Shown here: one piece after another, positions 14,822 through 26,090 of the stretch
Numbering within the stretch: position 1 is the first letter of the stretch
Layout: each line of letters opens with the position of its first letter
Assembly (NCBI RefSeq): GCF_027107535.1
Contig: NZ_CP114283.1
Span: 2,604,001 to 2,668,000, forward strand
Source: Streptomyces aurantiacus
Lineage (GTDB): Bacteria; Actinomycetota; Actinomycetes; Streptomycetales; Streptomycetaceae
DNA length: 64,000 nt
Direction: 5' to 3'
Program-made: the position numbers and the translations under genes
The notes under the pieces: model-generated
The model's database searches: none
What the model was told of the DNA's origin: nothing
What the model saw: the letters and a program-made list of their open reading frames with translations, nothing else

Positions 14822-17611
14822 ATGCCCCGGCGTACCCCACGCACCATCCTCGACAGACTGAGAACTCCCCGCAGATTCCCCAAGTTCCTCATGGGCGCTT
14901 CCATATGCGTCCTCGTCGCCGGTCTTTTGTCACCGCTTTCCCAGGCGGCCGCCGCCGACACCACCGTCCTGGCCGCCGACGACCACTGCGGCGGCCAGTG
15001 TTCCGACATCCTCCCGGCGGGCCAGAACGGGAACGCCACCCTCGCCCAGATCCTCCTGAACCAGGCCTTCGGCAGTCAGCCCGCACACGCGGACGACCAG
15101 CTCGCGCCCTATGGCAACCTCGCCTCGGGCTACTCCGGCCTCACCGACGCCAAGATCAACGACTTCTTCCGGGACGCCTCGTTCGGGGTCCCCGCCGACC
15201 AGGTCGAGTCGACCCTGAAGCCGGCCGGCCGCACCGATGTCACGATCGTCCGCGACAAGAAGACCGGTGTGCCGCACATCACAGGCACCACCCGCTACGG
15301 AACCGAGTTCGGCGCCGGATACGCGGCCGCCCAGGACCGGCTCTGGCTGATGGACGTCTTCCGGCACGTCGGACGCGGCAAACTGACCCCCTTCGCGGGC
15401 GGAGCCCCCTCCAACCAGGGCCTGGAGCAGGAGTTCTGGCGCCACGCCCCCTACACCGAGGCCGACCTGCAGGCGCAGATCGACAGCGCCGTCGCCACGA
15501 ACGGCGCCCGCGGCCAGCAGGCCCTCGCCGACGTCAAGGCCTACATCGCCGGCATCAACGCCTACATCGACGCCTCCGAGAGCGGCCGCTACTTCCCCGG
15601 CGAGTACGTCCTGACCGGCCACAAGGACTCCGTCACCAACGCCGGGACCATCGAGAAGTTCAAGGAGACCGACCTGGTCGCCCTCGCCTCGGTCATCGGC
15701 GCGCTCTTCGGCTCAGGAGGCGGCGGCGAGGTCAACAACGCCATCTCGCTCCTCGCCGCCCAGTCCAAGTACGGCGTCGAGGAGGGCACCAAGGTCTGGG
15801 AGTCCTTCCGCGAACGCAACGACCCCGAGGCCGTCCTCACCCTCCACAACGGCGAGAGCTTCCCGTACGCGACCAAGCCGAGCAGCCCGCAGGGCGAGGC
15901 CCTCCCCGACGCCGGCTCGGTCGCCGGCGAGCCGCTCGTCCACGACCGCACCGGCAGCGCGGCCACGTCCACGGCCACGAAGACCTCGGCCGCGGCGACC
16001 GCCGGCGCCCTCGGCTCGGCGAAGCGCGGCATGTCCAACGCCCTCGTCGTCAGCGGCAAGCACACCGCGAGCGGCAACCCCATCGCCGTCTTCGGTCCCC
16101 AGACCGGCTACTTCGCGCCCCAGCTGCTCATGCTCCAGGAGATCCAGGGCCCCGGTCTCAGCGCCCGCGGCGCCTCCTTCGCCGGACTGAGCATGTACGT
16201 CGAACTCGGCCGCGGCCAGGACTACGCGTGGAGCGCCACGACCTCCGGCCAGGACATCATCGACACCTACGCGGTCGAGCTGTGCCAGGACGACACCCAC
16301 TACCTCCACCGCGGCACCTGCACCCCCATGGAGAAGATCGAGCAGACCAACGCCTGGAAGCCCACCACGGCCGACGGCACCGCGGCCGGCTCGTACCGCA
16401 TGCAGGTCTGGCGGACGAAGTACGGCCCGGTGACGCACCGCGCCACGGTCGGCGGCAAGAAGGTCGCGTACACCACCCTGCGCTCCTCCTACATGCACGA
16501 GGCCGACTCGATCATCGGCTTCCAGATGCTCAACGACCCGGACTACGTGAAGAGCCCGCAGACCTTCCAGTCGGCGGTGCAGCACATCAACTACACCTTC
16601 AACTGGTTCTACGCCGACTCGAAGCACACCGCGTACTACAACAGCGGTGACAACCCGGTGCGTGCCACCGGCGTCGACGCCGAGTTCCCGGTCTGGGCGC
16701 GGCCGGCGTACGAGTGGAAGAACTGGACGCCCACCACGAACACCGCCGACTACACCCCGGCGTCCGCCCACCCCCACTCCATCGACCAAGACTACTACAT
16801 CTCCTGGAACAACAAGCAGGCCAAGGACTACACCACGGCTTCCTGGGGCAACGGCTCCGTGCACCGCGGCAACCTCCTGGAGGACCGGGTGAAGAAGCTG
16901 GTCACCGCGGGCGGCGTGACCAGGGCCTCGCTCACCAAGGCGATGGCCGACGCCGCACTGGCCGACCTGCGCGCCGAGGACGTCCTGCCCGAACTGCTGA
17001 AGGTCGTCAAGAGCTCGCCGGTCACCGACCCGGCGGCCGCGGCGGCCGTGACCAGGCTGTCCGACTGGGTGACGGCCGGCGCCAAGCGCAAGGAGAGCTC
17101 GGCCGGCTCGAAGGCGTACGCCAACGCCGAGGCGATCCGCATCCTGGACGCCTGGTGGCCGCTGCTGGTGAAGGCCGAGTTCGAACCAGGCCTCGGCAGC
17201 GACCTCTACACCGCCATGACGAACAACCTCCCGGTGGACGAGGCACCGTCGGCCGGACACGGGCCCACCGGCTCGCACGCCGGAAGCTCCTTCCAGTACG
17301 GCTGGTGGAGCTACGTCCACAAGGACATCCGGGCCGTGCTCGGCGAGTCCGTGCAGGGCGGCCTCGCCAAGCCGTACTGCGGCAACGGCAGCCTCAGCGC
17401 CTGCCGGGACATCCTGGTCGCCACCCTCAAGACGGCGGCCGGCCGCACCGCGGCCCAGGTCTACCCCGGCGACGAGCTCTGCTCGGCGGGCGACCAGTGG
17501 TGCGCCGACTCGGTCAACCAGCGGACGCTGGGCGGCATCAAGCACAACAAGATCAGCTGGCAGAACCGGCCGACCTACCAGCAGGTCGTGGAGTTCCCCT
17601 CGCACCGGTGA
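14822..17611 (+). CDS. Secreted penicillin acylase-family Ntn hydrolase
   Basis: The 929-residue precursor has a long basic n-region and hydrophobic core (ASICVLVAGLLSPLSQAAAA) forming a signal peptide. The alpha-chain region has GTEFGAGYAAAQDRLWLMDVFRHVGRGKL, the family signature. After a Gly/Ala/Thr linker, the likely processing site is GM-SNALVVSGKHTASG with Ser405 as the N-terminal nucleophile. Downstream Asn in NALVV and HGPTGSHAGSSFQYG in the beta chain fit the family. Most relatives have Gly before the Ser; here it is Met. The enzymes cleave amides such as acyl-homoserine lactones, aculeacin or penicillins; which one is not decidable. It is a monocistronic, extracellular enzyme. Confidence 0.9.
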   Translation: MPRRTPRTILDRLRTPRRFPKFLMGASICVLVAGLLSPLSQAAAADTTVLAADDHCGGQCSDILPAGQNGNATLAQILLNQAFGSQPAHADDQLAPYGNLASGYSGLTDAKINDFFRDASFGVPADQVESTLKPAGRTDVTIVRDKKTGVPHITGTTRYGTEFGAGYAAAQDRLWLMDVFRHVGRGKLTPFAGGAPSNQGLEQEFWRHAPYTEADLQAQIDSAVATNGARGQQALADVKAYIAGINAYIDASESGRYFPGEYVLTGHKDSVTNAGTIEKFKETDLVALASVIGALFGSGGGGEVNNAISLLAAQSKYGVEEGTKVWESFRERNDPEAVLTLHNGESFPYATKPSSPQGEALPDAGSVAGEPLVHDRTGSAATSTATKTSAAATAGALGSAKRGMSNALVVSGKHTASGNPIAVFGPQTGYFAPQLLMLQEIQGPGLSARGASFAGLSMYVELGRGQDYAWSATTSGQDIIDTYAVELCQDDTHYLHRGTCTPMEKIEQTNAWKPTTADGTAAGSYRMQVWRTKYGPVTHRATVGGKKVAYTTLRSSYMHEADSIIGFQMLNDPDYVKSPQTFQSAVQHINYTFNWFYADSKHTAYYNSGDNPVRATGVDAEFPVWARPAYEWKNWTPTTNTADYTPASAHPHSIDQDYYISWNNKQAKDYTTASWGNGSVHRGNLLEDRVKKLVTAGGVTRASLTKAMADAALADLRAEDVLPELLKVVKSSPVTDPAAAAAVTRLSDWVTAGAKRKESSAGSKAYANAEAIRILDAWWPLLVKAEFEPGLGSDLYTAMTNNLPVDEAPSAGHGPTGSHAGSSFQYGWWSYVHKDIRAVLGESVQGGLAKPYCGNGSLSACRDILVATLKTAAGRTAAQVYPGDELCSAGDQWCADSVNQRTLGGIKHNKISWQNRPTYQQVVEFPSHR

Positions 17612-19077: not shown

Positions 19078-20328
19078 TCAGCGGTAGAGGAGGTACTCCT
19101 TGCGTACGCGCCGGAAGGCGGCCAGGTCGTCCTGCCAACCCGCCACGACCTCGTCGGTCGTCGCACCCGCGTCGATCATCGTGCGCACCCGGGTGGAGCC
19201 CGTCAGCTTGTCGATCCAGTTGTCGGGGCGCCAGGCGAAGCCGCTCCAGGCCTTCTTGGCGGTCACCAGCAGCGCGATCCCGGTGCGCACGGGCTCGAAC
19301 GCGGCCCGGTCGTGGACGTGGATCTGTACGCCGCCGACCGTCTTCCCCTGGAACTTGGAGAAGGTGGGCGCGAAGTACGCCTCCCTGAAATGCACACCGG
19401 GCAGGCCGAGTTGTCCGGCCTCCGCGGCCCACCGCCGGTCCACGCCCTCCGCGCCGAGCAACTCGAACGGGCGGGTCGTGCCGCGCCCCTCCGACAGGTT
19501 CGTCCCCTCGAAGAGGCACGTGCCCGAGTACACGAGTGCCGTGTCGGGCGTCGGCATGTTCGGACTCGGTGGCACCCACGGCAGACCCGAGGTGTCGTAG
19601 AAGTCCGACCGCTGCCAGCCCGACATCCGCACGGTGTCCAGGGGCACCGGCGCCGCGAGGAACTCCCCGTTGAACAGCCGCGCCAGCTCCGCGACCGTCA
19701 TCCCGTGCGCCTGCGAGATCGGCTCCCGGCCCACGAACGTCGCGAACTCCTTGTGCAGTACGGGCCCCTGCGCGCTGCGGCCGGTCACCGGGTTCGGCCG
19801 GTCGAGCACCACGAAGCGCTTGCCCGCGAGCCGGGCCGCCTCCATGCAGTCGTAGAGGGTCCAGATGTAGGTGTAGAAGCGGGCGCCCACGTCCTGGATG
19901 TCGAAGACGACCGTGTCCACACCCGAGGCCGTGAAGATGTCGGCCAGCGGCTGTCCGCTCTTGAGATACGTGTCGTAGACCGGGAGCCCGGTCGCCGGGT
20001 CGTCGTGGCGGCCCTCGGAGCCGCCCGCCTGCGCGGTGCCGCGGAAGCCGTGTTCGGGGCCGAAGACCGCCGCCAGGTTCACCCGGTCGTCGGCGTGCAT
20101 GACGTCGACGATGTGGCGGGCGTCCCTGGTGACGCCCGTCGGGTTCGTCACGATGCCGACCCGTTCGCCGTCGAGGAGGGCGTAGCCGTCCGCGGCCAGG
20201 CGTTCGAAGCCGGTGTGCAGGCGCTTGCCGCCCGGTCGTGCCGGGGCGGCCGCGGCGGGCGGGCCCGCCGAGAGCGCGGCCGTGGCGGTCGTCGCGGCGA
20301 GGAGAGTGCGTCTGGACAGGCGGCGCAT
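19078..20328 (-). CDS. DUF1343 / NamZ-type exo-beta-N-acetylmuramidase, Tat-exported
   Basis: The product has 416 residues. The N-terminus MRRLSRRTLLAATTATAAL is a twin-arginine signal (SRRTLL). The mature domain has GVERL-type opening (GFERLAADGYALLDGERVGIVTNPTG), the conserved FGPEHGFRG and FDIQDVGARFYTYIWTLYD, and WVPPSPNMPTPDTALVY, all typical of DUF1343. The Bacillus member NamZ removes terminal MurNAc from cell-wall fragments; a role in peptidoglycan recycling or scavenging is inferred. GGAGG precedes the ATG. A LacI-like dyad lies about 45 bases upstream. The gene is divergent from the SDR operon. Confidence 0.87.
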   Translation of the reverse strand: MRRLSRRTLLAATTATAALSAGPPAAAAPARPGGKRLHTGFERLAADGYALLDGERVGIVTNPTGVTRDARHIVDVMHADDRVNLAAVFGPEHGFRGTAQAGGSEGRHDDPATGLPVYDTYLKSGQPLADIFTASGVDTVVFDIQDVGARFYTYIWTLYDCMEAARLAGKRFVVLDRPNPVTGRSAQGPVLHKEFATFVGREPISQAHGMTVAELARLFNGEFLAAPVPLDTVRMSGWQRSDFYDTSGLPWVPPSPNMPTPDTALVYSGTCLFEGTNLSEGRGTTRPFELLGAEGVDRRWAAEAGQLGLPGVHFREAYFAPTFSKFQGKTVGGVQIHVHDRAAFEPVRTGIALLVTAKKAWSGFAWRPDNWIDKLTGSTRVRTMIDAGATTDEVVAGWQDDLAAFRRVRKEYLLYR

Positions 20329-20368
20329 GGGTGAACCTCCGTGTTCTCGGCAGGTCGGCACAAGCACG

Positions 20369-20474: not shown

Positions 20475-20490
20475 ATACCGACCGGTTAGT
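20475..20490. promoter_or_regulatory. TetR-type operator (ACCGACCGGT family), copy 1
   Basis: ATACCGACCGGTTAGT shares the ACCGACCGGT core with sites at 26073-26090 and 28265-28280. It lies 49 bases before the SDR start, at the head of the operon that ends in TetR 3, so autoregulation is likely. Confidence 0.65.
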
Positions 20491-20538
20491 CTGATGGCTG
20501 AGCGGAGCCGATTCTCGTCGTGTCGAAGGGGACCGATC

Positions 20539-21303
20539 GTGGGAGCCATGCAGGATGCCGGAGTGGTCGTCACCGGAGCGGGCGGGGGGATCGGGGCCGC
20601 GCTGGCCCGTCGGTTCGCCGCCGAAGGGGCCCGGGTCGTCGTCAACGACCTGGACGGGGTGAAGGCCGCGGCGGTCGCCGAGGAGATCGGCGGGATCGCG
20701 GTTCCCGGCGACGCCTCCGCGATCGTGGCCGAGGCCCGGGACGCCCTCGGCGGCAGGGTCGACGTCTACTGCGCCAACGCCGGACTGGCCTCCGGCGGCT
20801 CGGAAGCGGCTCCCGAGAGGGTCTGGGAGCTCGCCTGGGACGTGAACGTGATGGCGCACGTCCGGGCGGCCCACGAGCTGCTCCCCGCCTGGCTGGAGCG
20901 CGGCAGCGGCCGTTTCGTCTCCACCGTCTCGGCGGCCGGCCTGCTCACCATGGTCGGCGCGGCCCCGTACAGCGTCACCAAGCACGGGGCGTACGCCTTC
21001 GCCGAGTGGCTGTCCCTCACGTACCGCCACCGCGGCCTGAGGGTCCACGCGATCTGTCCGCAGGGCGTCCGCACCGACATGCTCGCGGGCACCGGCAGCG
21101 CGGGTGACCTCGTCCTCAAGCCCACCGCCATCGAGCCCGAGGCCGTCGCGGACGCCCTCTTCAAGGGAATCGCGGAGGACCGCTTCCTGATCCTTCCGCA
21201 CCCCGAGGTCGCCGAGTACTACCGGGCCCGGGCCGCCGACCCCGACCGCTGGCTGACGAACATGAACCACATCCAGCAGAAGTGGGAGGCGGACGGCCGG
21301 TGA
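20539..21303 (+). CDS. Short-chain dehydrogenase/reductase (SDR)
   Basis: The product has 254 residues. The cofactor motif TGAGGGIGAA lies near the N-terminus, and Asp in VVNDLDG suggests NAD(H). Next come CANAGLASGG and the catalytic Ser in STVSAAGLL with YSVTKHG (Tyr and Lys). The family oxidises or reduces hydroxy/keto groups. GTG 20539 has an AAGGGGA site at the right distance; ATG 20548 is a possible alternative. The stop overlaps the GTG start of the acyl-CoA ligase by four bases (GTGA), so the two are translated together. It would correspond in role to the SDR of levulinate-type catabolism, which is inferred. Confidence 0.88.
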   Translation: MGAMQDAGVVVTGAGGGIGAALARRFAAEGARVVVNDLDGVKAAAVAEEIGGIAVPGDASAIVAEARDALGGRVDVYCANAGLASGGSEAAPERVWELAWDVNVMAHVRAAHELLPAWLERGSGRFVSTVSAAGLLTMVGAAPYSVTKHGAYAFAEWLSLTYRHRGLRVHAICPQGVRTDMLAGTGSAGDLVLKPTAIEPEAVADALFKGIAEDRFLILPHPEVAEYYRARAADPDRWLTNMNHIQQKWEADGR

Positions 21304-22967
21304 CCCCCTCCCTGTACGCGGCCCAGCCGTGGCGCGCGCTCCTGAACGACGCCCAGCGCGGGCCGGTCAGCCCCGACGACTCCGTGGTGCACGCGCTGCG
21401 CCGGGCCGTCGCCGGCACCCCGGACCGCACCTTCCTCACCTACTTCGACGGACGCCTGAGCTACCGCGAGACCGACGAGCTGAGCGACTCCGTCGCCGGG
21501 CATCTCGCCGCCCGCGGACTCGGGCGCGGCGACCGGGTCGCCGTCCTGCTGCAGAACTCCCCGCTCTTCGTGATCGCCGTGCTGGGCGCCTGGAAGGCCG
21601 GGGCGACCGTCCTGCCCGTCAACCCCATGTACAAGTCCGGGGAGGTCGCCCACGTCCTGCGGGACGGCGAGGTCGCCGCGCTGATCTGCTCCGACCTGGC
21701 CTGGGAGTCGTACCTGCGCGGGACGGCCGCCGACTCGCCCGTGCGCATCGTGCTGACCGGCTGCGAGCTGGACTTCCAGACGCGCGGCGACGCGCGCGTG
21801 CTGACCTTCGAGCGGCTGCCGCAGGCACCCGACGCCGACGACCTGGTGACCGTCGCCAGGGCGGGCCACCGGGCCCCGGCGGGCCGTGACCCGGGCCCGT
21901 CGGACTTCGCGCTGATCAGCTACACCTCGGGCACCAGCGGCGCCCCCAAGGGGGCCACCAACACCCACGGCAACATCATGTACAACGCCGAGCGCCAGCG
22001 GACGGGCCTCGCCCTGCCCGAGGCGCCCGTGTACTTCGCGATGGCGCCGCTGTTCCACATCACCGGCATGGTCTGCCAGTTCGCCGCGTGCCTCAACAGC
22101 GGGGGCACGCTCGTCCTCGCGTACCGCTTCGAGGCGGGAGCCGTCCTCGACGCGTTCGCCGAGCACCGGCCCCACTACACGGTCGGCCCCTCGACCGCCT
22201 TCATGGCGCTGGCCGCGCACCCGTCGGCGACGCCGGACCACTTCTCGTCCTTCGTGAACATCTCCTCGGGCGGCGCCCCCGTGCCGCCCGCACTCGTCGA
22301 GAAGTTCCGGGCGGGCTTCGGCCCGTACATCCGCAACGGCTACGGACTCACCGAGTGCACCGCGCCCTGTGCCTCCGTGCCGCCCGGCCGGGAAGCCCCC
22401 GTCGACCCGGTCTCCGGGACGCTCGCCGTCGGCCTGCCGGGACCCGACACGGTCGTACGCATCGTCGACGACCAGGGTCAGGAGGTCCCCTTCGGCGAGC
22501 AGGGCGAGATCCTCGTACGGGGCCCGCAGGTCGTGCCCGGCTACTGGCGGCGGCCCGAGGCCACCGCGGAGACCTTCCCGGACGGCGAGCTGCGCACCGG
22601 TGACATCGGGTTCATGGACGCGGACGGCTGGCTCTACGTGGTCGACCGCAAGAAGGACATGATCAACGCGTCCGGTTTCAAGGTGTGGCCGCGCGAGGTC
22701 GAGGACGTCCTCTACACCCATCCGGCCGTGCGTGAGGCGGCCGTCGTCGGGGTGCCCGACGGGTATCGCGGCGAGACCGTCAAGGCGTACATCAGCCTCC
22801 GTCCGGGCGCGGAGGAGGACCCGGCCGCGCTCGCCGCGTACTGCAAGGAGAGACTGGCCGCCTACAAGTACCCGCGGCAGGTCGAGATCCTGCCCGACTT
22901 GCCCAAGACGGCAAGTGGGAAGATCCTCCGTCGGGAGCTGCGTTCCCGGCCGCACGACGGTCAGTAG
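21300..22967 (+). CDS. Acyl-CoA ligase (AMP-binding, long/medium-chain type)
   Basis: This 555-residue enzyme activates a carboxylic acid with ATP to an acyl-adenylate and then acyl-CoA. The P-loop YTSGTSGAPKGA, YGLTECTAP, RTGDIGFMDADGWLYVVDRKKDMI and the catalytic lysine of TASGKILRREL are all present. GTG 21300 overlaps the SDR stop and is preceded by GGGAGG. It is the second gene of the SDR-ligase-TetR operon. The ligase would feed the acyl-CoA dehydrogenase and kinase encoded convergently at 23770-26031. The acyl chain length cannot be read from the motifs. Confidence 0.92.
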   Translation: MTPSLYAAQPWRALLNDAQRGPVSPDDSVVHALRRAVAGTPDRTFLTYFDGRLSYRETDELSDSVAGHLAARGLGRGDRVAVLLQNSPLFVIAVLGAWKAGATVLPVNPMYKSGEVAHVLRDGEVAALICSDLAWESYLRGTAADSPVRIVLTGCELDFQTRGDARVLTFERLPQAPDADDLVTVARAGHRAPAGRDPGPSDFALISYTSGTSGAPKGATNTHGNIMYNAERQRTGLALPEAPVYFAMAPLFHITGMVCQFAACLNSGGTLVLAYRFEAGAVLDAFAEHRPHYTVGPSTAFMALAAHPSATPDHFSSFVNISSGGAPVPPALVEKFRAGFGPYIRNGYGLTECTAPCASVPPGREAPVDPVSGTLAVGLPGPDTVVRIVDDQGQEVPFGEQGEILVRGPQVVPGYWRRPEATAETFPDGELRTGDIGFMDADGWLYVVDRKKDMINASGFKVWPREVEDVLYTHPAVREAAVVGVPDGYRGETVKAYISLRPGAEEDPAALAAYCKERLAAYKYPRQVEILPDLPKTASGKILRRELRSRPHDGQ

Positions 22968-23002
22968 ACAACGCGAAGAACAACACAAGAACTGGAAGGC
23001 AG

Positions 23003-23605
23003 GTGGCGGCAGTGCCCAGGACGACGGACGGGGACGGCACGCCCGTTCCGCGGCGGCTGCTGGCAGCCGCCACCCGGCTCTTCGCCGAGCGCGGCTACGA
23101 CCGCACCTCGGTCCAGGAGATCGTCGAGGCGGCCGGTGTCACCAAGGGTGCGCTGTACCACTACTTCGGGTCCAAGGACGATCTCCTGCACGAGGTGTAC
23201 GCACGGGTGCTGCGGGTGCAGCAGGAGCGGCTCGACGCCTTCGCGGGCGCCGACGCGCCGGTGGAGGAGCGGCTGCGGGGGGCCGCCGCCGATGTCGTCG
23301 TCACGACGATCGACAACCTCGACGACGCGTCGATCTTCTTCCGCTCGATGCATCATCTGAGCCCCGAGAAGAACAAGCAGGTGCGTGCCGAGCGGCGGCG
23401 CTACCACGAGCGCTTCCGTGCGCTGATCGAGGAGGGGCAGGAGTCGGGGGTGTTCTCGAAGAAGACGCCGGCCGACCTCGTCGTGGACTACCACTTCGGC
23501 TCCGTGCACCATCTGTCGACGTGGTACCGGCCCGACGGACCGCTCACCCAGCAGCAGGTCGCCGACCACCTGGCGGACCTCCTGCTGCGGGCACTGCGGC
23601 CGTAG
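23003..23605 (+). CDS. TetR-family regulator (TetR 3)
   Basis: The product has about 200 residues. The helix-turn-helix TSVQEIVEAAGVTKGALYHYFGSKDDLLHEV is typical of acyl-CoA responsive TetR proteins, and a C-terminal ligand domain follows. Two GTG codons (23003 and 23012) are possible starts; the purine run GGAAGG is close to the first and more distant from the second, so the start is uncertain. It closes the SDR/ligase operon, and an ACCGACCGGT operator in front of that operon recurs before the kinase/dehydrogenase operon and the flavin dehydrogenase. It therefore probably governs all three units. Confidence 0.87.
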   Translation: MAAVPRTTDGDGTPVPRRLLAAATRLFAERGYDRTSVQEIVEAAGVTKGALYHYFGSKDDLLHEVYARVLRVQQERLDAFAGADAPVEERLRGAAADVVVTTIDNLDDASIFFRSMHHLSPEKNKQVRAERRRYHERFRALIEEGQESGVFSKKTPADLVVDYHFGSVHHLSTWYRPDGPLTQQQVADHLADLLLRALRP

Positions 23606-23654
23606 GCCGCCGGGGGTTCGTCCCGCCCCGCCGCTCCTGCCCTGGCCGGACGGG

Positions 23655-23730
23655 CCGGATTCTCGGCCCGCCCGGCGTTCGAGGACCGGGGGTTCGGGGA
23701 CGGAGCCCCCGAGGACGGGAAGCGCAGGGG
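23655..23730. terminator. Convergent terminator region with Streptomyces-type repeat
   Basis: Between TetR 3 and the convergent acyl-CoA dehydrogenase is GGGCCG-ATTCT-CGGCCC followed by GCCCGGCGTTCGAGGACC, a motif often seen between Streptomyces genes. A second hairpin, GGGGG-TTCGGGGACGGAG-CCCCC, follows. Both can fold as stable hairpins serving either strand. Confidence 0.5.
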
Positions 23731-23769
23731 CGGCGGGGGCGAAGCCGTCGGCCCCGCCGCACCGGTGGG

Positions 23770-25002
23770 TCAGACGTACTTCTTGATCTCGTGGCGGGCC
23801 AGCGAGCGCTGATGCACCTCGTCCGGGCCGTCGGCCAGCTTCAGGGTGCGCGCGCCGGCCCACAGCTCGGCCAGCGGGAAGTCCTGGCTGACTCCGCCCG
23901 CGCCGTGCAGCTGGATCGCCTTGTCGATGATGTCGACGACGGTACGAGGCGTGGCGATCTTGATCGCCTGGATCTCCGTGTGCGCACCCTTGTTGCCGAC
24001 GGTGTCCATCATCCAGGCCGTCTTGAGGACCAGCAGTCGCAGCTGCTCGACCGCCACCCGCGCGTCGGCGATCCAGTTGTGGACGACCCCCTGCTGGGCC
24101 AGCGACTTGCCGAAGGCCTCACGGGAGACGGCCCGTCGGCACATCAGCTCGATCGCCCGCTCGGCCATGCCGATGAGCCGCATGCAGTGGTGGATACGGC
24201 CGGGGCCGAGCCGCGCCTGGGCGATGGCGAAACCGCCGCCCTCCTCGCCGATGAGGTTCGTGACCGGGACGCGCGCACCGTGGAAGACGACCTCGGCGTG
24301 CCCTCCGTGGGAGTGGTCCTCGTAGCCGTAGACCTGCATCGCGCGCTTGACCTCGACGCCGGGGGTGTCGCGGGGCACCAGGACCATCGACTGCTGACGG
24401 CGGATGTCGGACCCGTCCGGGTCCGTCTTGCCCATCACGATGAAGATCTTGCAGTCGGGGTTCATCGCCCCGGAGATGTACCACTTGCGGCCTGTGACGA
24501 CGTACTCGTCCGTGCCCGTCGTGGCGTCGGTGGACCGCTCTATCAGCGTGGTGATGTTGGTGGCGTCGGAGGAGGCCACCTCGGGCTCGGTCATCGCGAA
24601 CGCCGAACGGATCTCACCGGCGAGCAGCGGCTCCAGCCACTGCTTGCGCTGCTGCTCGTCGCCGAACTGGGTGAGCACCTCCATGTTGCCGGTGTCGGGT
24701 GCCGCGCAGTTCAGTGCGGTGGGCGCCAACTGCGGGGACCGGCCGGTGATTTCGGCGAGGGGCGCGTACTGGAGGTTGGTCAGCCCGGCCCCGTACTCGG
24801 AGTCGGGGAGGAAGAGGTTCCACAGGCCCTGTCGGCGGGCCTCGGCCTTCAACTCCTGGACCACGGCCGGGGTGTCCCACGGAGAGGCGAGCCGCTCGCG
24901 CTGCTCGTGCGCGACCGCCTCCGCCGGATAGACGTACTCGTCCATGAAGGCGAGCAGCCTGGCCCGCAGTTCCTCGGTGCGTGCGTCGTATGCGAAGTCC
25001 AT
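23770..25002 (-). CDS. Acyl-CoA dehydrogenase, ACAD10/11 (LvaC)-like
   Basis: The product has 410 residues. The family pattern includes AFAMTEPEVASSDATNI, KWYISGAMNPDCKIFIVMGKTDP, GRIHHCMRLIGMAERAIELMCRRA and QLHGAGGVSQDFPLAELWAGAR. These belong to the ACAD10/11 branch, not to the ordinary fatty-acid enzymes. This branch works with a kinase of the aminoglycoside phosphotransferase fold, which is encoded six bases upstream here and fused to the dehydrogenase in animals. The pair converts a phosphorylated 4-hydroxyacyl-CoA to the enoyl-CoA in known cases; the same is inferred here. The usual YEGTS-type catalytic motif is not seen, in keeping with the branch. Confidence 0.88.
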   Translation of the reverse strand: MDFAYDARTEELRARLLAFMDEYVYPAEAVAHEQRERLASPWDTPAVVQELKAEARRQGLWNLFLPDSEYGAGLTNLQYAPLAEITGRSPQLAPTALNCAAPDTGNMEVLTQFGDEQQRKQWLEPLLAGEIRSAFAMTEPEVASSDATNITTLIERSTDATTGTDEYVVTGRKWYISGAMNPDCKIFIVMGKTDPDGSDIRRQQSMVLVPRDTPGVEVKRAMQVYGYEDHSHGGHAEVVFHGARVPVTNLIGEEGGGFAIAQARLGPGRIHHCMRLIGMAERAIELMCRRAVSREAFGKSLAQQGVVHNWIADARVAVEQLRLLVLKTAWMMDTVGNKGAHTEIQAIKIATPRTVVDIIDKAIQLHGAGGVSQDFPLAELWAGARTLKLADGPDEVHQRSLARHEIKKYV

Positions 25003-25008
25003 GGCCGG

Positions 25009-26031
25009 TCAGCCTTCCTGAAGAGTGGTCAGGCCGTGCTCGATGAACACGGGGACCAGGTCGCCGATGCGGTCGAAGCCCGCGCCGACGGTCTGGCCGA
25101 GCGTGTAGCGGTAGTGGATGCCCTCCAGGATCACGGCGAGCTTGAACCACGCGAACGCCGTGTACCAGGCGACGGCGGACACGTCGCGCCCCGAGCGCGC
25201 GGCGTACCGCTCGATCAGCTCGGCCGGCTCCGGGTGCCCGGCGGCCGTGGCGGTCGTGGAGACGGGCGAGTCGGGCAGCCCCAGCGGCATGCTGTACATG
25301 ACCAGCAGGCCCAGGTCGGTGAGCGGATCGCCCAGCGTGGACATCTCCCAGTCGAGGATCGCCTTGATCTCGTCGTCCTCGCCGATCAGCACGTTGTCGA
25401 GGCGGTAGTCGCCGTGCACCACGGTGGCCGTGGGGGAGTGCGGCAGGTCGCGCCCCAGTGCCGCGTGCAGCTCGTCGATCCCGGCCAGCTCACGGTTGCG
25501 GGAGGCGTCCAACTGCTTGCCCCAGCGCCGCAGTTGCCGGTCGAGGAAGCCCTCGGGCCGGCCGAAGTCGGCGAGGCCCACCTCGGCGGGGTCCACCGCG
25601 TGCAGTTCGACCAGCGTGTCGACGAGCCCCAGCACCGCGCCGCGTGTGCGCTCCGGGCCGAGCGGCGCGAGCTGCTCGGCGGTCCGGTAGGGCGTGCCCT
25701 CCACGAAGTCCATGACGTAGAAGGGCGCGCCCAGCACGTCCACGTCCTCGCACAGCAGGCGCGTACGCGGCACGGGCACGGCCGTCGGGTGCAGCGCGCT
25801 GATCACCCGGTGCTCGCGCTTCATGTCGTGCGCGGTCGCCAGTACGTGGCCCAGCGGCGGCCGCCGTACGACCCACTTGGCGGTGCCGTCCGTCACCGCG
25901 TACGTGAGGTTCGACCGTCCGCCCTCGATCAGCCGGCCGGTCAGGGGGCCGTGGACCAGCCCGGGCCGCTCGCCGTCGAGCAGGCGGCGCAGCCGGTCGA
26001 GATCGAGACCCGGCGGGTGGTCTGCGCTCAT
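25009..26031 (-). CDS. APH-fold kinase, LvaA/ACAD11 N-domain-like
   Basis: The product is a 340-residue kinase. The small lobe begins with GRLIEGGRSNLTYAV, catalytic HGDYRLDNVLI lies near residue 209, and the metal-binding Asp is in ILDWEMSTLGDPLTDLG. These are classic aminoglycoside phosphotransferase-fold motifs, but the WEMSTLGDPL and FYVMDFVEGTPYR details are those of the acyl-CoA-associated branch. It is directly followed by the matching dehydrogenase, so drug resistance is unlikely. The expected role is phosphorylation of 4-hydroxyacyl-CoA. GGAAA lies before ATG 26031, and a near-palindromic operator lies 42-59 bases upstream. Confidence 0.88.
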   Translation of the reverse strand: MSADHPPGLDLDRLRRLLDGERPGLVHGPLTGRLIEGGRSNLTYAVTDGTAKWVVRRPPLGHVLATAHDMKREHRVISALHPTAVPVPRTRLLCEDVDVLGAPFYVMDFVEGTPYRTAEQLAPLGPERTRGAVLGLVDTLVELHAVDPAEVGLADFGRPEGFLDRQLRRWGKQLDASRNRELAGIDELHAALGRDLPHSPTATVVHGDYRLDNVLIGEDDEIKAILDWEMSTLGDPLTDLGLLVMYSMPLGLPDSPVSTTATAAGHPEPAELIERYAARSGRDVSAVAWYTAFAWFKLAVILEGIHYRYTLGQTVGAGFDRIGDLVPVFIEHGLTTLQEG

Positions 26032-26072: not shown

Positions 26073-26090
26073 ATGCCGACCGGTCGGTAT
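26073..26090. promoter_or_regulatory. TetR-type operator (ACCGACCGGT family), copy 2
   Basis: ATGCCGACCGGTCGGTAT is an 18-bp palindrome with a single mismatch. It is the best copy of the motif found at 20475 and 28265. It sits in the promoter of the kinase/acyl-CoA dehydrogenase operon (minus strand). Confidence 0.7.

Follow-up and report, generated by a model that had tools for sequence, protein, structure and literature searches.

A putative 4-hydroxyacyl-CoA degradation locus with ACAD11-type enzymes and a PfmR-like repressor in Streptomyces aurantiacus

We analysed a stretch of 64,000 nucleotides from Streptomyces aurantiacus (assembly GCF_027107535.1, contig NZ_CP114283.1, positions 2,604,001 to 2,668,000 of the forward strand; hereafter the window, in whose numbering positions are given) and describe a locus at 20539–26031, in which genes for a short-chain dehydrogenase/reductase (SDR), an acyl-coenzyme A (CoA) ligase and a TetR regulator converge with genes for an APH-fold kinase and an acyl-CoA dehydrogenase (ACAD). 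We consider it highly likely that one TetR repressor governs these two operons and that together they channel 4-hydroxyacyl-CoA into β-oxidation. Judged from their sequences, the genes very probably let Streptomyces break down fatty acids that are blocked by a hydroxyl group at C4. The enzymes are of a known kind; the novelty lies in their arrangement as a regulated set that has an SDR family and a PfmR-type operator of its own. Gene content, residues, clades, linkage, co-occurrence and operator conservation are direct results of this work, and the chemistry is drawn from homologues.

A preliminary description of the locus had proposed such a route, which is still its best reading, and had called it undescribed as such in Streptomyces. 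We likewise found no account of the gene set in this genus in the open-access literature searched, and the available text of two ACAD10/11 papers (PMC12440821, PMC11342911) does not mention 'streptomyces'.

Gene content and layout

Open reading frames (ORFs) and Pfam matches confirm the five genes, their coordinates and strands, and the gap of six bases between the kinase and ACAD genes, all of which had been given in the preliminary description.

20475–20492, plus strand: putative TetR operator ATACCGACCGGTTAGTCT, 64 bp 5′ of the SDR start, 15/18 matches to the palindrome ATACCGACCGGTCGGTAT
20539–21303, plus strand: SDR oxidoreductase, 254 residues, GTG start, Pfam adh_short 120 bits; proposed to act as reductase/dehydrogenase at C4 of the acyl chain
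21282–22967, plus strand: AMP-binding acyl-CoA ligase, 561 residues, Pfam AMP-binding 299 bits
23003–23605, plus strand: PfmR-like TetR regulator, 200 residues, Pfam TetR_N 82 bits and TetR_C_24 113 bits
23770–25002, minus strand: ACAD11-type ACAD, 410 residues; proposed 4-phosphoacyl-CoA eliminating enzyme
25009–26031, minus strand: ACAD11-type APH-fold kinase, 340 residues, Pfam APH 185 bits; proposed 4-hydroxyacyl-CoA kinase
26073–26090, minus strand: putative TetR operator ATACCGACCGGTCGGCAT, 59 bp 5′ of the kinase start, 17/18 matches

The ligase gene overlaps the end of the SDR gene by 22 bases, and the TetR gene begins 35 bases after the ligase gene. The ACAD matches the C-terminal, middle and N-terminal Pfam domains of its family with 120, 60 and 39 bits, respectively, and the kinase contains the motif HGDYRLDN. 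An alternative, longer SDR ORF that starts at 20341 would include the operator at 20475–20492. None of the five proteins scores above a curated NCBIfam cut-off (for the SDR and the ligase, among the best 25 rows each).

The dehydrogenase and the kinase

Among PDB entries, the ACAD scores highest against mouse ACAD11 (448 bits; 55% identity), 4hr3 (438 bits) and the separate ACAD11 domain 2wbi (437 bits), and the next conventional ACAD reaches 126 bits. In a tree of 31 rows, the window protein and mouse ACAD11 fall into one 15-row clade (support 100/99), and a separate 9-row clade (96/97) holds the ACADs of lva-type operons together with one paralogue from the window's own genome. Lva-type operons are here those of four Pseudomonas genomes (L200, L201, L202 and L206), recognised by gene order and domains and not by accession. 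Since the program flagged some distant rows as long-branched, we rely on these two clades only.

The preliminary description had singled out the residues around HGDYRLDN and the dehydrogenase active site for comparison, and in both enzymes the key residues match ACAD11. R264, H272, R275 and D391 of the ACAD align with R626, H634, R637 and D753 of ACAD11, which have been tied to the 4-phospho substrate and to catalysis, and ACAD11 mutants of R626, H634 and R637 lose ACAD activity and accumulate the phospho-intermediate (PMC12440821). All four residues are kept in every one of the 15 rows of the ACAD11 clade.

The kinase finds its best PDB matches in 9o56 (221 bits), 3dxp (166 bits) and the ACAD11 kinase domain (160 bits) and is 33% identical to mouse ACAD11. 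R72, E73, R165, D208, N213 and D227 are common to both in the alignment, D208 and N213 corresponding to the catalytic D220 and N225 of the ACAD11 kinase. Two arginines, R86 and R176, have been modelled at the CoA moiety of that kinase (PMC12440821); R165 aligns with R176, and R72 is the arginine beside the αC glutamate. By our count the first CoA-side arginine is residue 84 of mouse ACAD11 and not 86, as in that paper, and the mapping of R72 therefore leans on the paper's wording rather than on its numbering.

Kinase and ACAD of the window thus belong to the lineage of mammalian ACAD11 and ACAD10 (PDB 8v3u/8v3v) and have the same catalytic and phosphate-binding residues. Unlike ACAD11, which is one fused chain, the Streptomyces pair is encoded by two ORFs six bases apart, so that it is homologous, with the same proposed function, but not the fused form. 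The Streptomyces locus also adds the SDR, the ligase, the TetR regulator and the shared operator. ACAD10 carries an additional HAD domain (PMC12440821), for which none of the five window genes provides an equivalent.

Linkage and distribution

The gene set occurs in nearly all sampled Streptomyces. Among 101 genomes of the genus, 97 have the ACAD (E ≤ 1e-100) and 96 the kinase (E ≤ 1e-60). Of the 96 that have both, 95 carry them as same-strand neighbours, 6–87 bp apart (median 10); in the exception, G015, they lie on different contigs. Four genomes (G033, G035, G048 and G089) have neither. For G041 no kinase is among the matches listed, but a diverged ORF is present there (58% by BLAST; APH 88.6 bits, in two stretches). 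Twenty other loci of the genus, from as many genomes (L066–L085), all contain the TetR gene, with the SDR in 19 and the ligase in 15 (one partial). In a phylum sample of 296 genomes (ACAD E 1e-80, kinase E 1e-15), 130 contain both proteins, five the ACAD only, eight the kinase only and 153 neither.

A shared operator and its regulator

An 18-bp site with 15–17 matches to ATACCGACCGGTCGGTAT lies upstream of the kinase gene in all 21 loci, the window included, and a site with 14–15 matches lies upstream of the SDR gene in all 20 loci that have one. The best sites before the ligase, TetR and ACAD genes reach 9–13 of 18, and in the window neither of the two upstream regions exceeded 13 when shuffled 200 times. 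Within the window, ATACCGACCGGTCGGTAT at up to three mismatches recovers exactly the two operators, against 0.02 expected. Across the genus, ATACCGACYRGTCGGYAT occurs with at most one mismatch in 91 of the 101 genomes, compared with nine matches in six genomes for the reversed control. Fifty-seven of the 60 genomes listed with a site have one 51–130 bp before the kinase gene, the others being G005, G041 and G093. Another 26 sites among those listed are mostly unexplained; one of them is that of G041, beside the uncalled kinase ORF.

The TetR protein finds its best PDB match in 3vpr (93 bits), which is identical to Thermus thermophilus TTHB023, or PfmR, at 180 of 180 residues; the window protein is 33% identical to TTHB023. 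The palindrome before both operons matches TACCGACCGNTNGGTN, the operator published for PfmR (Agari et al., cited in PMC7022988). The nanomolar binding reported in PMC7022988 concerns a related consensus and genomic sites. In view of this similarity of protein and operator, both operons are probably repressed by the TetR protein through the palindrome that they share.

In several genomes, a second palindrome, ATACCGACCGGTAGGCAT, recurs some 20–41 kb away from the locus. In the window's own genome, at G000:C2:2599102 (L217), a palindrome like ATACCGACCGGTAGGCAT has another TetR gene on one side and, on the other, a large ORF that is by eye a molybdopterin-type oxidoreductase.

The SDR and the ligase

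The SDR family was found in 60 of the 296 phylum genomes (E ≤ 1e-40), with the kinase in all 60 and the ACAD in 58. Outside the genus, all 48 SDR-bearing genomes have the kinase, compared with 126 of 284 overall. The SDR gene sits next to an ACAD or kinase match at two loci of G343 and in G337, G292 and G385; in G064 it lies close to the second ACAD. Most of the remaining genomes that bear the SDR have it away from both. Relatives in ACAD11-type clusters are 57% (Tsukamurella), 51% (a Pirellulales metagenome-assembled genome, MAG), 47% (a betaproteobacterial MAG) and 45% (Deinococcus) identical, whereas two SDRs of lva-type operons (L200 and L202) show 27–29% and a Peribacillus SDR 24%. The role 'as LvaD' that the preliminary description gave to the SDR is not borne out, because the protein is nearer to this other family, which accompanies ACAD11-type pairs.

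The ligase is a general FadD-like enzyme, with NCBIfam long-chain ligase models scoring up to 427 bits, under their cut-offs (best 25 rows). An LvaE role, likewise proposed, is unsupported, because the ligase is of this general kind and is absent from five of the 20 otherwise similar loci.

Alternative explanations

The same enzyme classes occur within one locus in the lva operon of Pseudomonas (LvaABCDE), with the same proposed phosphorylated intermediate, and the window could encode the levulinate pathway proper, with the ligase as LvaE, the SDR as LvaD, the kinase and ACAD as LvaA and LvaC, and levulinate as substrate. We regard this as improbable. The preliminary description had likened the kinase and ACAD both to the two halves of ACAD11-type proteins and to the LvaA/LvaC pair; the first likeness holds, but the second does not, since lva-type ACADs are 33% and lva-type kinases 21–23% identical to those of the window and both belong to other clades. 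By sequence, the kinase–ACAD pair is nearer to ACAD10/11 than to the lva operons. The lva-type ACADs are only 33–34% identical to mouse ACAD11, which disagrees with the values given for KT2440 LvaC in PMC11342911 (62% to ACAD10, 56% to ACAD11). Lva-type operons also differ in their SDR, as described above, and in gene order, which runs kinase, DUF6285-type protein, ACAD, SDR, ligase (the small protein of L206 was found by tblastn). A divergent regulator lies by these operons, which in L200 is a PrpR_N/sigma-54 protein of the type described for lva (PMC6692424), unlike the TetR protein of the window. No LvaB-like partner had been noticed in the window, and a DUF6285 query taken from one of the Pseudomonas lva-type operons found nothing better there than E 0.12 over 22 residues. 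The P. citronellolis lva region likewise has no lvaB (PMC6692424), which would agree with the levulinate pathway. In our comparison, both CoA-side arginines are absent from all eight kinases of the lva-type clade (support 100/100, joined in the tree to a row with a long branch, of which the program warned), and a DUF6285-type (LvaB-like) protein adjoins all eight, which come from Pseudomonas loci; the window kinase has both arginines, so that the absence of an LvaB here fits.

It is highly improbable that the kinase is an antibiotic-modifying enzyme whose link to the ACAD is incidental, as the Pfam family name APH and the title of PDB entry 9o56, an aminoglycoside phosphotransferase, could suggest. 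The name of 9o56 is the depositors' own, and this protein has the same key residues; database names for these genes include 'phosphotransferase family protein' and 'aminoglycoside phosphotransferase (APT) family kinase protein'. Against the models for known drug kinases, the window protein scores 31.5 bits for APH(3′) (cut-off 205) and 22.6 bits for Mph(A) (cut-off 550), and it stays far under the cut-off of all nine matched aminoglycoside and macrolide phosphotransferase models, which agrees with the preliminary description. Its nearly constant ACAD neighbour and the strong co-occurrence in the phylum also argue against a drug as substrate. Very unlikely, too, is an ordinary set of β-oxidation genes, in which the ACAD would be a conventional acyl-CoA dehydrogenase, with the kinase acting on something else. 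Ligase, SDR and TetR genes are typical of fatty-acid loci, and PfmR has been described as a regulator of phenylacetate and fatty-acid genes (PMC7022988). However, in the window ACAD the R/H/R cluster is accompanied by the ACAD11 motif LADGPDEVH, and the position of D391 is occupied by glutamate in the conventional rows own_L056 and L160; ACAD10/11, moreover, were inactive on plain C6–C22 acyl-CoA (PMC12440821).

Several observations weigh against the 4-hydroxyacyl-CoA route or limit its reach. The R/H/R/D residues are also complete in the lva-type ACAD clade and in the Pseudomonas ACADs L208 and L209, with three of the four in own_L058; they are thus not specific to the ACAD11 clade and mark a class of chemistry, not a substrate. 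Among PDB entries the SDR matches, at E ≤ 1e-25, only a (3R)-hydroxyacyl-CoA dehydrogenase (108 bits), so that it may instead act at C3, in a 3-oxo role. Besides the incomplete presence of the ligase, the SDR is missing from one of the 20 related loci. The co-occurrence of kinase and ACAD in the phylum (Fisher p 1e-66) takes no account of shared ancestry, and the search thresholds differ by protein, with genome counts covering the candidates scored per search. Ten of the 101 genomes have no ATACCGACYRGTCGGYAT match at up to one mismatch: four of them have no locus, and six (G003, G013, G028, G032, G039 and G073) contain the ACAD, indicating that the operator has diverged or gone there. PaaR, a TetR repressor and phenylacetate regulator of Burkholderia, has an operator with the same palindrome core (PMC9493321, PMC2770484), and the motif alone therefore does not settle the pathway. 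In the window's genome a looser pattern gave 15 matches and its control 19; eight of the loose-site neighbourhoods that we read hold varied genes with no common theme (a β-lactamase-fold hydrolase, a universal stress protein, a luciferase-like oxidoreductase and others). Since the pattern is no commoner than its control, we claim no wider regulon.

Proposed pathway

In the 4-hydroxyacyl-CoA route that we favour, the substrate would enter as its CoA ester. This could come from the ligase, acting on an unesterified 4-hydroxy or 4-oxo acid, or straight from β-oxidation that has brought a longer hydroxy fatty acid down to the 4-hydroxy stage. The SDR would interconvert 4-oxo- and 4-hydroxyacyl-CoA and might convert the wrong enantiomer to the one preferred by the kinase; this is the weakest step of the scheme. 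By analogy with homologues of assayed activity, the kinase is expected to phosphorylate the 4-hydroxyl group. Work on ACAD10/11 suggests that D391 of the ACAD would then take a proton from C2 while R264, H272 and R275 hold the 4-phosphate, and that the phosphate would be expelled to give trans-2-enoyl-CoA, with FAD redox-active but unchanged overall. The TetR protein, encoded in the SDR operon, would repress both operons until a pathway intermediate releases it. Candidate substrates are medium- to long-chain 4-hydroxy acids, such as those from γ-lactones or from shortened 10- and 12-hydroxy acids.

If this is true, a route known from mammals and from the growth of Pseudomonas on levulinate would be standard equipment of Streptomyces, and a kinase whose family name hints at drug resistance would gain a testable function. 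The proposal points to a dedicated SDR family that could be assayed, and its predicted operator connects Streptomyces with Bacillaceae and Thermus. In addition, the proposal sets the ACAD10/11 lineage apart from the lva lineage and links the LvaB-type DUF6285 protein to kinases without the two arginines.

More tentatively, and with somewhat less conviction than we would need to favour it, we suggest that a TetR_C_24/PfmR-type repressor together with a ATACCGACCGGTCGGTAT-like palindrome marks a 4-hydroxyacyl-CoA salvage regulon, near-universal in Streptomyces and recurring in Bacillaceae and Thermus with either kinase–ACAD lineage. In Streptomyces, such a regulon would mainly clear 4-hydroxyacyl-CoA road-blocks of β-oxidation, its SDR family would correct the stereochemistry or oxidation state at C4, and the Thermus PfmR operon would be of the same kind. 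Because the road-blocks would arise inside β-oxidation, the ligase would be dispensable.

Related loci in other bacteria

The PfmR operon of T. thermophilus HB8 resembles the Streptomyces locus in its homologous TetR protein, its near-identical operator and its ligase, SDR, ACAD and phosphotransferase genes. It differs in that its kinase and ACAD are lva-type, with a DUF6285 gene following. TTHB014 (kinase) and TTHB015 (ACAD) are 37% and 51% identical to the proteins of L202 but only 26% and 39% to those of the window. On pTT27, the locus encodes, in this order, TetR, ACAD, serine hydrolase, SDR, MaoC, thioesterase, AMP-binding protein, SDR, ACAD, kinase, DUF6285 protein and histidine phosphatase; the published operon ends at the kinase gene (PMC7022988). 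The region (L261:5044–13746) resembles an LvaA/LvaB/LvaC-type 4-hydroxyacyl-CoA locus, and its ACAD has RLDPARLTHCMR, although the literature assigns it to phenylacetate and fatty-acid metabolism.

In nine Bacillaceae loci we searched for the variant ATACTAACCGGTTAGTAT (at least 15 of 18 positions). It lies 34–38 bp before an ACAD11-type ACAD gene in L137, L147, L149 and L151, 40 bp before an ACAD match in L154 and 50–58 bp before the kinase gene in L151 and L197, and it is absent before the ACAD11-type ACAD gene of L139 and L158 and before the kinase gene of L198. Random sequences gave 0–0.05 matches per locus. The TetR protein of L197 is also of the TetR_C_24 type.

A plasmid cluster of Tsukamurella tyrosinosolvens (L061) has a kinase (51%), an ACAD (69%), an SDR of the same family (55–57%) and a ligase (41%) like those of the window. 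Unlike the window, it adds a PTE-family hydrolase, a HAD phosphatase, MaoC, a thiolase and two more ACADs. HAD proteins are found in the ACAD11-type clusters L249, L251, L253 and L061 and recall the HAD domain of ACAD10; for those of L061, L251 and L253, the best NCBIfam model, under its cut-off, is 'epoxide hydrolase N-terminal domain-like phosphatase'. Operator-like sites were seen in L249 and L251, too. PTE-family hydrolases adjoin the related clusters L061 and L253 and give a hint at the substrate; the PDB entries nearest to them bear the name phosphotriesterase or aryldialkylphosphatase. Lactonase activity occurs in the PTE family.

Two further plasmids of Streptomyces carry related genes. 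A copy in S. cathayae (L059:7329–7788), with no ligase seen, has IS3 transposase genes around it, and the TetR gene is matched there in two pieces. In Streptomyces sp. NBC_00388 (L060:5853–8215), a kinase–ACAD pair (55% and 70%) is found among ketosynthase, HAD and AfsA-type genes; this one neighbourhood leads us to speculate that the pathway may remove γ-butyrolactone signals.

The R/H/R/D residues recur in a second ACAD encoded by the window's genome (G000:C2:4367404–4368663; L057:7404–8663), which falls into the lva-type clade; no kinase match was found in the 16 kb searched around it. An APH protein and an ACAD some 2 kb apart at L056 were considered as a second pair and rejected, the ACAD lacking R/H/R/D and the kinase lacking R165. 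Within the window, a penicillin-amidase family protein (394 bits) is encoded at 14822–17611, and a NamZ exo-β-N-acetylmuramidase family protein lies at 19078–20310, upstream of the SDR gene and on the opposite strand.

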